A stretch of 32,951 bases of DNA from an uncultured Atopobiaceae bacterium (lineage in GTDB: Bacteria > Actinomycetota > Coriobacteriia > Coriobacteriales > Atopobiaceae), in assembly GCA_947599965.1 (NCBI GenBank), contig CANQFP010000009.1:1-32951 (forward strand), read 5' to 3'. A program made the translations under genes and the position numbers. Positions 28,730-32,951 of this stretch are shown piece after piece. The notes beneath the pieces are model-generated. The model saw only the letters and a list, made by a program, of their open reading frames with translations, made no database searches and was not told the origin of the DNA. Position 1 is the stretch's first letter, and each line of letters starts with the position of its first letter.

Positions 28730-29401
28730 ATGGCCATCACACCCCAAGACATCGAACAGCTCACGTTCTCGCCTTCCAAGCATGGCTACGACACCGAGGA
28801 AGTCGATCGGTTCTTGGAGCAGCTCTCCGTCGAGGTGGACGCCATGCTCCAGAAGATCGCCGACCTCAAGGGGCGCCTCACGGCCTCCGACCAGGCCCTC
28901 GATGCCGCTCGCGCCCAGGTGGCGCAGCTCCAGGGCGAGCTCTCCCAGAGCCAGCAGGTGATCCCGATCTCCTCCGTGGCCGCCTCAACGACCGGTGCCA
29001 CCGAGCAGCAGATCTCCGCGGCACTCATCGTCGCCCAGCAGGCCGCCGATCGCATCGTCTCCGACGCTCGCGAGAGCGCGGACAAGATCCGCACCGAGGC
29101 CGATCAGAAGGCCCGCGAGGTCATCCGCCAGGCGCTCGCCGAGAAGCAGAACGAACTCGACGAGATCGATCGCCTGAAGGCCTCCCGCGAGGAGTTCCGC
29201 AGCGAATACAAGAAGCTCCTCCAGCACTTCATGGACGACGCGGACACCACGTTCCCGGCGGCGACCTCCTTCCCGGCGCCCGCGACCTACGAGGTGCCCG
29301 CTCCGGCCGCTCCCGTCGCCCAGGAGGTGGACGTGAACGCCACCGTCTACGTCCCCGCGCCCGCGGCGGACGGCTTCTCCATGCTGGACGATCTGGACTA
29401 G
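28730..29401 (+). CDS. divIVA: Polar growth/division coiled-coil protein DivIVA
   Basis: Membrane-curvature-sensing coiled-coil scaffold (Wag31/DivIVA family); 223 residues. The N-terminal lipid-binding domain is ITPQDIEQLTFSPSKHGYD followed by TEEVDRFLEQLSVEVDAML, matching the family. Coiled coil continues to about 70, then a Ser/Thr/Gln-rich hinge, a second helical segment (about 90-165, AADRIVSDARESADKIRTEA), and a Pro/Ala-rich tail ending FSMLDDLD. The ATG at 28730 follows AGAAGGGA; an upstream in-frame opening at 28625 is not family-like. It closes the ftsZ-divIVA series and its stop overlaps the convergent gene on the other strand. Confidence 0.94.
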   Translation: MAITPQDIEQLTFSPSKHGYDTEEVDRFLEQLSVEVDAMLQKIADLKGRLTASDQALDAARAQVAQLQGELSQSQQVIPISSVAASTTGATEQQISAALIVAQQAADRIVSDARESADKIRTEADQKAREVIRQALAEKQNELDEIDRLKASREEFRSEYKKLLQHFMDDADTTFPAATSFPAPATYEVPAPAAPVAQEVDVNATVYVPAPAADGFSMLDDLD

Positions 29402-29462
29402 CTCCCCGCTCCTCCCAACCAGCCCGCCACGGCGCTTCCGGCGAACCCGGGGGCGCCGTTTT
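29398..29462 (+). terminator. divIVA terminator embedded in the opposing gene
   Basis: The divIVA stop TAG (29399-29401) and the opposing gene's stop share CTAG at 29398-29401. Then ACGGCGC (29429-29435) pairs perfectly with GCGCCGT (29453-29459) around a 17-nt GC-containing loop, followed by TTTT (29459-29462). It has a T-run only for the plus strand, so it should end the ftsZ-divIVA transcripts while lying within the last codons of the minus-strand gene. Confidence 0.6.
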
Positions 29463-30555
29463 GCGTGGCGTCCTCCCGGGAAACCGGGCGCGCGTGGGGC
29501 TTTCGCGCTCGTCCCTCGGCCTCCGCCTCGCCGTCTTCCATCGCCTCAGCCCACGCCCCCTCGCTCCAGCCGTCGTCCACGGAAGGGTCGAGCTCGACGA
29601 GCCCCTCGGCGATGCGCTTCGGCATGAAGTTCGCCCGCAGGTCGTAGCCGCGCTCGAGCTTTCCGCGGCCGGGGAGGGCGAGGGCGTCGTAGAAGCGCTT
29701 CCAGAGCGCCCGTACCGAGCGCTCGACCCCAGAGAGCTCGTGGGGGCGGGAGAGCTCAGCCACCTCATCCTCCGAAAGCGGGCCGCAGACGAGGCGCCCC
29801 TCGCTCAAGAGCACGGCAGTTCGGTGCTTCGGATCGGCCAGAAGGAAGCGCTCGCCCTCCATGCGACGCGCGAAGTGGCCCGCGACGAGGGGAAGCACGT
29901 TCGCCTTCGGCGTGTAGAGTGCGAAGAACGCGCCCGTGGAGAGCTCCGAGAAGCGCACGAACTGCCGCGCCTTCTCGCTCTCGTTCACGGCGAGCGTGTG
30001 GAAGGCCTCCGCCTGGGCGATCCTCGGGTCGCGCGCGGCCAGGGAGCGCACCTCCCGACCGTGATCGAAGCCGCCGACGAGAAACGCGTGGAGCGCCTCC
30101 GGCATGGCCTCGTCATCGGCGGCGGCGATGGTGTAGACGCGCCGCGCGCAGGCCGACGGGCAACCCCGCTGGCAGCGACCGCCCCGCACGCGCGGACACC
30201 CCTCGCGAAGCCGCGCGGCGAAACCCCGGTAGACGCGCCGGGCGAGGCCCTCGATGACGGGAACCTCGAGGAAGGCCTCGCCGAGCGCCGGCTGCGCGAA
30301 GCCGCTGCGCACGAAGCGCAGCGGAGCGTGCGGGCAATGGGCGAGGTAGGAGAGCCCGGTGGCCGTGAGCACGCCGTCTGCGCTCGGGGCGAGCGCCACG
30401 CAGACGGCGGGCGCCTCGCGCGCGAGCGCTCCGAGACGCTCCGTGAGCTTCTCGGAGAGCTCCTCCTCGGCCCGCTTGGCCGAAGCGAGCTCAGAAGAGC
30501 GTGAGTTGGCGAGGGTTCTCTCGCCGGGCGCGGTTATAGGCGCTGGACGCGGCAT
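29398..30555 (-). CDS. DUF4130/TIGR03915-type DNA metabolism protein
   Basis: Partner of the adjacent radical SAM protein; the family (DUF4130, related in fold to uracil-DNA glycosylases) is annotated as probable DNA metabolism or repair. It has 385 residues. The recognisable core is ESEKARQFVRFSELSTGAFFALYTPKANVLPLVAGHFARR, then FLLADPKHRTAVLL and WKRFYDALALPGR...RANFMPKRIAEGL. The N-terminal ~50 residues are charged and family-atypical. Unusual for what I remember of the family is a four-Cys segment, Cys120, 128, 132 and 136 (GCPRVRGGRCQRGCPSAC), which could bind metal. The ATG at 30555 has an SD-like AAGGTGG and overlaps the upstream gene by 65 bp. The C-terminal ~35 residues are low-complexity and overlie the divIVA terminator. 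Confidence 0.82.
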   Translation of the reverse strand: MPRPAPITAPGERTLANSRSSELASAKRAEEELSEKLTERLGALAREAPAVCVALAPSADGVLTATGLSYLAHCPHAPLRFVRSGFAQPALGEAFLEVPVIEGLARRVYRGFAARLREGCPRVRGGRCQRGCPSACARRVYTIAAADDEAMPEALHAFLVGGFDHGREVRSLAARDPRIAQAEAFHTLAVNESEKARQFVRFSELSTGAFFALYTPKANVLPLVAGHFARRMEGERFLLADPKHRTAVLLSEGRLVCGPLSEDEVAELSRPHELSGVERSVRALWKRFYDALALPGRGKLERGYDLRANFMPKRIAEGLVELDPSVDDGWSEGAWAEAMEDGEAEAEGRARKPHARPVSREDATQNGAPGFAGSAVAGWLGGAGS

Positions 30556-31873
30556 CGCTCACCACCTTCTCGCGAATGGCCTCCGGCGAGGCGATGAAGC
30601 GGGGGCTGCGCGCACCGGAGCAGGTGATGAAGAACCCCGCGCGCTTCAGGGATATGTGGAGACGATCGAGGTCGTCGAAGGTGAGGCGATGGGCCCGGCG
30701 CGCCCGGCAGATCTTTCTCACGGAGGTGGGCCCGAACCCGGGCACGCGCAGAAGCGTCTCCCTGCTCGCGGCGTTCACCTCCACGGGGAAGCGATCGGGC
30801 ACGGTGAGCGCCCAGGCGAGCTTCGGATCCACGTCGAGATCGAGGAACGGGGCGTCGCCCGCCACGAGCTCGGATGCCTCGAACCCGTAGAAGCGCATGA
30901 GCCAATCCGCTTGGTAGAGGCGATGCTCGCGGCGAAGGGGGACCGGCGTCTCGGGGTCGGGGAGGCGCGGATCGTCCGCGATGGGCATGTAGGCCGAGAA
31001 GAAGACGCGCTTCAGGCCGAAGCGCCGGTAGAGGCTCGTGGAAAGCGAGAGGATGTCGCGATCGCTCTCGGGCGTGGCGCCGATGATGAGCTGGGTGGAC
31101 TGCCCCGCGGGGCAAAACGCCTCGCCTCGCGGGCCCCCGCGCCTGGCACTACTTTTCCGCACGAGCCCCGAGGCGGGAAGCGCCGCCGTGCGTGCATCGG
31201 GTTTCACCGTCGAGTAGACGCTGCCCGCTCCTTCGGAGGTGCCGTGGGAGACGGCGCCCGTGCCGAGGAGGCGCCCGGAGTGCATGGAGGCGTGGATCTG
31301 CGCCATGGGGGCGAGCACGTCTTCCGCGTGCTTCTCCGGGCAGAGCCGCTCGAGCGATTCGGCGCTCGGGAGCTCGACGTTCACGGAGAGGCGATCGGCG
31401 AGGCGCCCCAGGCGGTCGACGAGCTCAGGGTCGGTGCCGGGGATCACCTTGGCGTGGACGTAGCCGCCGAAGCGATACGGCCCGCGGAGGAGCTCCAAGC
31501 ACGCGATCATGCGCTCGGAGGTGGCGTCGGCGCTGCCCAGCACGCCGGAGGAGAGGAAGAGCCCCTCGATGTAGTTGCGCTTATAGAAGTCGATGGTGAG
31601 CTGTGCGAGCTCCGCGGGCTCGAACGTCGCCCGCGGCACGGGGTTCGACACGCGGTTCACGCAGTAGGCGCAGTCGTGCGTGCAGGCGTTCGAGAGGAGC
31701 ACCTTCAAGAGCGTCACGCAGCGCCCGTCGGCCGTGAAGGAGTGGCAGCATCCGGCGTTCGAGGCGACGCCGATGGCACCCTTCTTCGGCCCGCGCTCCA
31801 CGCCGGAGGAGGTGCACGCGGCGTCGTATTTCGCCGCGTCGGCCAAGATCTCGAGCTTCGCGAGCGTATCCAT
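30491..31873 (-). CDS. Putative DNA modification/repair radical SAM protein (TIGR03916 type)
   Basis: Radical SAM enzyme of the family that travels with DUF4130 proteins; role in DNA modification or repair is predicted, not shown. It has 460 residues. Family N-terminus KLEILADAAKYDAACTSSG and GCCHSFTADGRCVTLLKVLLSN leads to the 4Fe-4S motif Cys64-x3-Cys68-x2-Cys71 (ACTHDCAYCVNR). The barrel continues with FYKRNYIEGLFLSSGV, then VNVELPSAESLERLCPEKH and FCPAGQSTQLIIGATPESD. A helix-hairpin-helix-like LLRVPGFGPTSVRKICRARR near residue 390 suggests DNA contact. The start is placed at ATG 31873 (MDTLAKL) because GGGGAGG lies just upstream; an ATG at 31891 precedes that SD. Two LexA-like boxes are upstream. 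Confidence 0.88.
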   Translation of the reverse strand: MDTLAKLEILADAAKYDAACTSSGVERGPKKGAIGVASNAGCCHSFTADGRCVTLLKVLLSNACTHDCAYCVNRVSNPVPRATFEPAELAQLTIDFYKRNYIEGLFLSSGVLGSADATSERMIACLELLRGPYRFGGYVHAKVIPGTDPELVDRLGRLADRLSVNVELPSAESLERLCPEKHAEDVLAPMAQIHASMHSGRLLGTGAVSHGTSEGAGSVYSTVKPDARTAALPASGLVRKSSARRGGPRGEAFCPAGQSTQLIIGATPESDRDILSLSTSLYRRFGLKRVFFSAYMPIADDPRLPDPETPVPLRREHRLYQADWLMRFYGFEASELVAGDAPFLDLDVDPKLAWALTVPDRFPVEVNAASRETLLRVPGFGPTSVRKICRARRAHRLTFDDLDRLHISLKRAGFFITCSGARSPRFIASPEAIREKVVSDAASSAYNRARRENPRQLTLF

Positions 31874-31893
31874 CGCACCTCCCCGCGCCATGC

Positions 31894-32080: not shown

Positions 32081-32119
32081 TGGCGAGTGCGCGCGGCGAG
32101 GAACCGCGCGCACTCGCCA
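32081..32119. other. Perfect 16-bp hairpin without a T-run
   Basis: Bases 32081-32096 are perfectly complementary to 32104-32119 around a 7-nt loop (CGAGGAA). On the minus strand it follows the RiPP-gene terminator; no T-run adjoins it on either strand. It may reinforce termination between the RiPP gene and the radical SAM gene, protect an RNA 3' end, or be a repeat element. Confidence 0.6.
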
Positions 32120-32121
32120 CG

Positions 32122-32154
32122 AAAAACGGGGCGCCCGCCGATGACGGACGCCCC
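32122..32154 (-). terminator. Intrinsic terminator of the Nif11-type gene
   Basis: Read on the minus strand, GGGGCGTCCG pairs with CGGGCGCCCC (10 bp with one G-U) around a 7-nt loop and is followed by GTTTTT. It begins 15 bp after the stop codon, so the precursor gene should form a monocistronic transcript. Confidence 0.78.
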
Positions 32155-32169
32155 GCATGAGGTTCAGTC

Positions 32170-32577
32170 CTAGAGGTCCCTGCCCGTGCCGCCGAGGCCC
32201 GTGCACGTGCCATCGCCGGCCTTCCCCTCGGTCTGCGGCGTTGAGAGGTCTTTGTGTTGGCCGTACCCAAAGCAGAAGCAGCCCTTCACCGCTCCGATGA
32301 AGATGCACCCGCAGGCGCCGCCGGCGACCGCCTCGAGCTCGGCTTCGGAGAGTTCGCCCTCGGCGGCGGTCTCAGCCTCGGCCGCGAGGATGTCCTCTGC
32401 GGTGAGGTCGAGGTCGTGGGCGGCCGCGAAGGCGGCGACGGCCTCGGCCATGGCGGTGCGGGCCTCCTCCTCGGAGATGCCCTCGACGTCGACGCCCTCC
32501 GTCACGGTGACGAGCTCCGCCTGGAGCGCGTCGTCTGCGGAGATGACCTCGTAGAACTTCTGGACTTTCTCGTTCAT
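32170..32577 (-). CDS. Nif11-type leader RiPP precursor peptide
   Basis: Predicted precursor of a ribosomally made, post-translationally modified peptide. It has 135 residues. The N-terminal 87 form a Nif11-like leader (MNEKVQKFYEVISADDALQ, then a Glu/Ala-rich helical body) ending in ELSEAELEAVAGG, a classic double-glycine cleavage site. The predicted core is 88-135 with five Cys: Cys89 and 91 (CGC), Cys100 and 102 (CFC) and Cys125, plus Ser/Thr at 112, 113, 116, 124, 126 and 131. The ATG at 32577 follows AAGGAAG; an upstream in-frame ATG at 32697 adds an Arg-rich segment without family likeness. No modification enzyme or peptidase-type exporter is in the window; they may lie beyond the right edge. 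Its product class cannot be told from the precursor alone. Confidence 0.82.
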   Translation of the reverse strand: MNEKVQKFYEVISADDALQAELVTVTEGVDVEGISEEEARTAMAEAVAAFAAAHDLDLTAEDILAAEAETAAEGELSEAELEAVAGGACGCIFIGAVKGCFCFGYGQHKDLSTPQTEGKAGDGTCTGLGGTGRDL

Positions 32578-32613: not shown

Positions 32614-32637
32614 ATTATGGCGGCCGAGAGTCGGCCG
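32614..32637 (-). promoter_or_regulatory. Candidate promoter and operator of the Nif11-type gene
   Basis: On the minus strand CATAAT (32619-32614) is a possible -10, 37 bp before the ATG. A perfect dyad CGGCCGA-GAG-TCGGCCG at 32621-32637 fills the spacer region and could be an operator. No clear -35 is visible. Confidence 0.35.
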
Positions 32638-32759: not shown

Positions 32760-32951
32760 TCGAAACGTCAGCGAGAGGCGCTGGGGTGCCTCAGATAGAC
32801 GGGATCTCGGCCACGTAGCGTACTGGCGCTACGTGAGTGGCCGGGATCGTGGCTAGGTGAGGTGCAGCGCCTCGCAGCATCGACTTGGAGCATGGTGGAG
32901 ACGCAGGGATTCGAAACGTCAGCGAGAGGCGCTGGGGTGCCTCAGATAGAC
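32760..32951. repeat. Two copies of a 41-bp direct repeat, 151 bp apart
   Basis: Bases 32760-32800 and 32911-32951 are identical; the second ends at the window edge, so its true length is unknown. Between them is a bulged hairpin: GGCCA (32809-32813) and CGTAGCG (32814-32820) pair with CGCTACG (32827-32833) and TGGCC (32838-32842), with a 4-nt bulge. GAGGCGCTG inside each repeat is complementary to CAGCGCCTC at 32865-32873. The rest of 32578-32951 holds further dyads (CTCCTC/GAGGAG at 32721-32735; ACCTGCAGGT at 32738-32747) and no gene I can support. Confidence 0.7.
32893..32915 (-). pseudogene. tRNA 3'-end fragment (T-loop to CCA)
   Basis: On the minus strand, 32915-32893 reads as T-loop TTCGAAT, 3' T-stem CCCTG, acceptor strand CGTCTCC, discriminator A and CCA, resembling the end of a serine-type tRNA. 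The 5' T-stem partner (CAGGG) is missing: the adjoining bases belong to the 41-bp repeat. It is therefore a truncated remnant or recombination junction and not a working tRNA, unless the remainder is arranged unusually beyond the edge. Confidence 0.35.

Follow-up and report, generated by a model that had tools for sequence, protein, structure and literature searches.

Near the right end of a contig from an uncultured Atopobiaceae bacterium lies a gene for a Nif11-type RiPP precursor that had been annotated as an orphan, and the question raised by this locus is whether its product stands alone or is served by enzymes encoded elsewhere in the genome. The window analyzed here (32,951 bp) is an entire contig (C9) of a MAG of 1.43 Mb in 96 contigs with 96% completeness.

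The precursor gene, its leader and its core

The initial annotation had given an ORF at 32170-32577 without its strand; the ORF exists and encodes 135 residues on the minus strand only (32577..32170, ATG at 32577 and stop at 32170-32172), the plus strand having a stop in the same frame. A ribosome-binding-like AGGAAG was read from the sequence immediately 5′ of the ATG. As annotated, the gene has its own intrinsic terminator directly at its 3′ side (minus strand, 32126..32156), consisting of a 14-pair stem at 32156-32126 and a T tract, and four terminator-type sites were seen around the gene (0.7 expected). The dyad reported in the promoter was retained in part: a short inverted repeat, GGCCGA-GAG-TCGGCC, is present on the promoter side (32622-32636) with arms of only 6 bp, but a repeat finder with a minimum of 12 nt gave no dyad in the promoter region. 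No sigma-70-like site was detected in this region, and the upstream sequence GGTTCGAAACC, T-arm-like in appearance, was rejected as a tRNA after a tRNA search of the upstream region found none. A perfect 16-bp inverted repeat with a 7-nt loop was observed at 32081-32119, between the terminator and the next gene.

The leader (residues 1-87; minus strand, 32317..32577) is a helical Nif11-like domain ending in ELSEAELEAVAGG, as judged from the TIGR03798 matches of relatives, a profile match to 9zn4, dN/dS values and the AlphaFold model. TIGR03798 was matched by 28 of 28 aligned relatives and PF07862 by 23 of 28 (E ≤ 0.01), and a profile of the aligned relatives matched, among solved structures, the Nif11 domain 9zn4 (E = 1.8e-4) over the entire leader. 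The window protein alone scored below the curated cut-offs of both models (TIGR03798, 21.6 versus 32.3 bits; PF07862, 18.5 versus 23.8 bits), and because of these single-sequence scores it is named, on the strength of the family profile, a Nif11-like homologue and not a model-defined member; its paralogue C24:3266 exceeds both cut-offs. With this caveat, the leader HMM search proposed in the initial annotation found significant Nif11 matches, in agreement with the Nif11-type precursor with a double-Gly site described there. In the AlphaFold model, the leader is all-helical, with pLDDT of 77-88 for residues 1-70, and the core is disordered; a Foldseek search with this model, in which the leader alone is folded, gave nothing under E = 5.

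Cleavage at the GG site (residues 86-87) would leave a 48-residue core (residues 88-135; minus strand, 32173..32316), ACGCIFIGAVKGCFCFGYGQHKDLSTPQTEGKAGDGTCTGLGGTGRDL, carrying five conserved Cys (89, 91, 100, 102 and 125) and Thr at 124 and 126, exactly as annotated. An alignment of 28 homologues contained 23 invariant columns, and the canonical core CxC-x3-G-x3-G-CxC...C with all five Cys was kept in 25 of the 28 rows. The CxC/CxC core is distinctive, as annotated. Five is an odd number, and internal disulfides cannot hold all of these Cys. Against five relatives, dN/dS was 0.15-0.22 in the leader and 0.55-1.6 in the core; the leader is under purifying selection and the core is not, and the pattern is that of a fixed leader and a fixed scaffold with changing loops. 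A conserved leader joined to a changing core is the pattern expected of RiPPs. That the window gene is instead a decaying, functionless paralogue is most improbable: although remnants exist in the family, including a leaderless copy (G013:C7) and copies with in-frame stops, the ORF and its terminator are intact here, and comparison with the L010 relative (87% identity) gave a dN/dS of 0.29 over the entire gene and of 0.16 for its leader.

Paralogues, exporter and sister genomes

Eight Nif11-type precursors were found in the same genome, namely five with the canonical five-Cys core (C9, the window gene; C24:4716; C24:2771; C42; C61), one variant (C24:3266) and two divergent precursors (C17 and C81). 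Six of them, including that of the window, are distributed over four contigs and align at E ≤ 4e-20; those of C17 and C81 match weakly. Sister genomes gave 6-17 precursor-family matches each. The core similarity search proposed in the initial annotation thus recovered four paralogues in the own genome, as well as relatives in sister genomes, with the same core, and the orphan status was not borne out, as the genome also holds RiPP-type enzymes, an exporter and a candidate maturase that synteny would place approximately 2 kb away. Fragmented MAGs can make RiPP precursors seem orphaned although the enzymes are located elsewhere in the genome. Most database relatives of the window protein (52-87% identity) come from MAGs of uncultured Atopobiaceae in a "Lapin" series, taken from its name to be of rabbit gut origin. 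A mobile-element origin was rejected, the precursor having no match in viral contigs, plasmids or phages.

Contig C25 encodes an NHLM exporter with a C39 peptidase-ABC protein (TIGR03796, 905 bits) and an ABC protein (TIGR03797, 732 bits), both above cut-off, together with a short HlyD-like protein; apart from the TIGR03796 protein, the genome gave no C39 peptidase match. A GG site, a variable core and an NHLM exporter are therefore all present. Among 140 genomes of the family, with kinship ignored, precursor homologues occurred together with NHLM in 20 of 22 genomes (8 expected) and with the radical SAM (rSAM) family described below in 17 of 22 (3.8 expected); outside the genus, the corresponding counts, likewise with kinship ignored, were 16 of 16 and 11 of 16. 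No NHLM ABC1 was detected in G011 and G014, both less than 90% complete. In G013, a five-Cys precursor also lies in the homologous NHLM cluster, together with a SpoIIE-type phosphatase and a small GG peptide.

Several features of these neighbourhoods were recorded in addition. The HlyD-like NHLM component is short, about 190-200 aa (L028, 13056-13625; L101, 13125-13730), and TIGR03794 (421 positions) was matched by the L028 copy over positions 1-69 only. SpoIIE-type phosphatases lie beside the exporter and precursors (L028, 18077-19930; L025, 2761-5159; L101, 6112-8025), one of them with a STAS-like partner, and LytTR regulators lie near two precursors (L023 and L025); both may point to regulation of the system. 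Two genomes encode similar GG peptides of 51-53 aa with a basic core (...VNLSPTQAVDLARGLAVKAVKKPLFKK), one close to the rSAM pair (L033 on C72, 3195-3356) and one within the NHLM cluster (L101 on G013:C1, 8089-8244); they could be a pheromone or a second exporter substrate. Two five-Cys precursors in L013 (G013:C6, 10560-13579) are surrounded by a run of at least six very small GG-leader peptides whose leaders are short and acidic, and no maturase was seen nearby. In an Eggerthellaceae MAG (L019, 5844-10399), genes for a two-component system and an ABC transporter, which by eye from the translations resemble those for peptide-antibiotic sensing and immunity, precede a five-Cys precursor.

Radical SAM enzymes as candidate maturases

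As stated in the initial annotation, no maturase adjoins the gene on the visible side: the window is one complete contig, and the neighbouring rSAM gene (minus strand, 30491-31891) was rejected as an adjacent maturase, its product matching TIGR03916, a putative DNA modification/repair protein, with 561.6 bits. The gene at 29398-30555 (minus strand) is a conserved neighbour of this TIGR03916 gene. On the other side, the contig ends in two identical 41-bp direct repeats at 32760 and 32911 (spacing, 151; region, 32760..32951), the assembly break lying inside the repeat.

The rightward extension suggested by the initial annotation was made by comparison of gene order. Past the orthologous precursor in L010 and L012 are an RNase P RNA region and toxin-antitoxin genes, followed in L010 also by an rSAM gene of type C, and contig C81 of the own genome carries RNase P RNA (at its start), a toxin-antitoxin pair and an rSAM/SPASM gene in that order. 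The same order is present on a single contig in G012, with the type C enzyme approximately 2.4 kb from the precursor. C81 would thus follow C9, with a join that rests on synteny, not on overlap, and a candidate type C enzyme would lie approximately 2 kb past the right end of the window. Exact 77-bp end overlaps are shared by C81 and C79, and likewise by C61 and C72, so that C81-C79 and C61-C72 are contiguous.

Four rSAM/SPASM-type enzymes were found in the genome, that is, a tandem pair on C72, the type C enzyme on C81 and a degenerate type B enzyme on C79 (L098, 3450-4856), which is truncated and has lost part of its SPASM cysteines; enzymes of RiPP type are accordingly present, as the initial assignment presupposed. 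Both C72 enzymes and the C81 enzyme passed the SPASM model TIGR04085 and possess all SPASM Cys, and the C81 enzyme has Radical_SAM and SPASM Pfam domains above cut-off. None of the rSAMs scored above the cut-off of a curated RiPP-maturase model (for example, TIGR04103, 82 of 725 bits), no PlpX-specific model was among their best NCBIfam matches, and their closest solved relative by sequence was the sactipeptide (sactionine) synthase SkfB (3.3e-24). The N-terminus of type C contains a region of about 100 aa in which no Pfam match was found, and a structural model of the enzyme (two sequences) had a pLDDT of 44, too low to show a leader-binding RRE. In sister genomes (L099 and L100), the type B gene adjoins a Nif11 precursor whose core is poor in Cys; in the own genome this core reads GGMGLPGDQCSLFGADDEPMILWY (L026, C17).

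In two sister genomes (G011:C77 and G013:C9), only 15 bp separate the end of an intact five-Cys precursor (...GGASDCICPVIGAANGCGCFFYGQGKDQEKYGSPGCMGVGAMPSK) from two tandem rSAM/SPASM genes that follow it in the same direction and are orthologous to the C72 pair (74-76% identity). In these two genomes, a five-Cys precursor is encoded together with such enzymes; for the window gene they are encoded elsewhere in the genome or, by synteny, about 2 kb away. Of 91 precursor matches, 15 were located no more than 2 kb from an rSAM of this family. The own genome has no precursor ahead of the C72 pair, and any action of that pair would consequently be in trans.

These observations make it probable that the five-Cys precursors are modified in trans by rSAM enzymes, presumably to thioethers, and then cleaved and exported by NHLM. 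The helical leader of the window precursor would be recognized by rSAM/SPASM maturases from other loci of the genome, the C72 pair being the best candidate and the C81 enzyme the second, and the five conserved core Cys would be cross-linked, most likely as thioethers, in view of the similarity to SkfB and of thuricin CD and ruminococcin C, each made with two such enzymes. The Cys sulfur could be joined to an alpha-carbon, as in sactipeptides, or to a beta- or gamma-carbon, as in ranthipeptides. To our knowledge, the leaders of thuricin CD and ruminococcin C are not of Nif11 type. The single C25 exporter would then cut after Gly86-Gly87 and secrete a 48-residue peptide, which presumably serves bacterial competition.

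An unlikely alternative to trans modification is that these are unmodified or disulfide-only class II-like bacteriocins, with the Nif11-type leader serving just NHLM and the rSAMs acting on their own cis peptides. The hydrophobic, Gly-rich core with paired Cys would suit such peptides, weak matches to the class II bacteriocin models TIGR03949 and PF10439 exist, albeit with a start at the GG region, most five-Cys precursors lack a maturase next to them, some neighbouring rSAMs have candidate substrates of their own (for example, a small Nif11 peptide on C81), and N11P were noted in species that have neither TOMM nor lanthionine enzymes (Haft 2010, PMC2887384). The intact precursors directly ahead of tandem rSAMs in two genomes, the odd number of Cys and the strong co-occurrence with rSAMs argue for enzymatic modification instead.

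Within the favoured reading, the tandem pair is preferred to type C as the enzyme for the window peptide. Every genome in which its second enzyme was found has five-Cys precursors: G015, a genome of the same genus with 98% completeness, retains the first enzyme (orthologue, 80%) and a type C enzyme (58%) but lacks the second enzyme, and no five-Cys core was present among the precursor matches read there. A contig-end fragment 65-69% identical to the first enzyme was also found in the Eggerthellaceae MAG with a five-Cys precursor (L019). Type C has a conserved small Nif11 partner of its own with a different core (C81:3101-3343), and that it matures the window peptide, a sub-case overlapping the main explanation, is accordingly doubtful, although it has several points in its favour. 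It is the enzyme located about 2 kb from the precursor in the own genome (by synteny) and in G012, and the latter genome (91% complete) has many five-Cys precursors with types B and C only, the C72-type pair being undetected; in G013 a five-Cys precursor has moved along with it, as has a five-Cys remnant that lacks the leader, 0.16 kb upstream, and in G015 it comes after two Nif11 precursors.

The class of the product, left open in the initial annotation among lanthipeptide, sactipeptide and others, was narrowed by these rSAM/SPASM genes adjoining related precursors and by the lack of any LanC-like domain match in the genome (control positive). Nif11 leaders are classic substrates of LanM and TOMM enzymes (PMC2887384) and the MAG is fragmented, yet a lanthipeptide or azole product made by a LanM or YcaO hidden in assembly gaps is scarcely to be expected: in addition to the LanC result, DUF4135 had no match in the genome (its positive control being also silent), no LanM was recognized beside the five-Cys precursors examined, and no YcaO cyclodehydratase was recognized among the genes read near precursors.

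Relation to known systems

The likeness to Nif11-derived peptides with NHLM (Haft et al. 2010, PMC2887384) lies in the common leader type, the ELS(D/E)xELxxVAGG motif, large paralogous sets and a three-part exporter, and N11P adjoining NHLM were noted there in Eggerthella lenta, a coriobacterium. Whereas those cases use LanM or a cyclodehydratase, rSAM/SPASM genes are linked here and LanC and DUF4135 were not found. The same principle of pairing is seen in Nif11/NHLP systems with a radical SAM enzyme as sole candidate maturase (TIGR04064 and similar; PMC3023750, 2011), from which the present one differs in rSAMs far below every curated cut-off and in a tandem pair with scattered precursors. 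Pairs of Nif11 and rSAM have thus been known since 2011, and what is new is the five-Cys form with tandem rSAMs and many precursors; literature searches found no paper on this five-Cys family.

Prochlorosins (PMC10783134) share a Nif11 leader and the use of one enzyme (ProcM) for many precursors, and differ in that enzyme being a lanthionine synthase, in place of the rSAM enzymes proposed here. It is conceivable, though put forward tentatively, that this family is an rSAM counterpart of prochlorosins, in which one tandem pair would act in trans on about 5-12 scattered five-Cys precursors and a new thioether topology would arise from CxC/CxC/C. If true, the logic of "one promiscuous enzyme, many precursors" known from lanthionine synthases would reach radical SAM enzymes in gut Actinobacteria, and the family would constitute a natural library whose cysteine scaffold is fixed while its loops evolve, with a directly testable crosslink pattern.

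Thuricin CD (TrnC/TrnD; PMC12093266) and ruminococcin C (RumMC1/2; PMC8188230) likewise combine two rSAM/SPASM enzymes with Cys-rich thioether cores, but are encoded in cis clusters and have a Cys spacing different from that of the five-Cys family; the leader of RumC is 19 residues long (PMC8188230). Spliceotides (PlpX; PMC11002830) have NHLP/Nif11 leaders and a SPASM rSAM, and the window core happens to contain the splicease motif, Xaa-Tyr-Gly (GYG at 104-106), which is also present in several relatives, including operon-embedded ones, in some with another first residue. Since rSAM spliceases and epimerases are known to accept Nif11/NHLP leaders (PMC11002830), another rSAM chemistry (splicing, epimerization or C-C links), with the Cys in disulfides or metal binding, was weighed and appears quite unlikely: the enzyme of solved structure nearest in sequence is a sactionine synthase, and the family conserves Cys, not Tyr, the Tyr of GYG being absent from most aligned relatives, in which all five Cys are retained.
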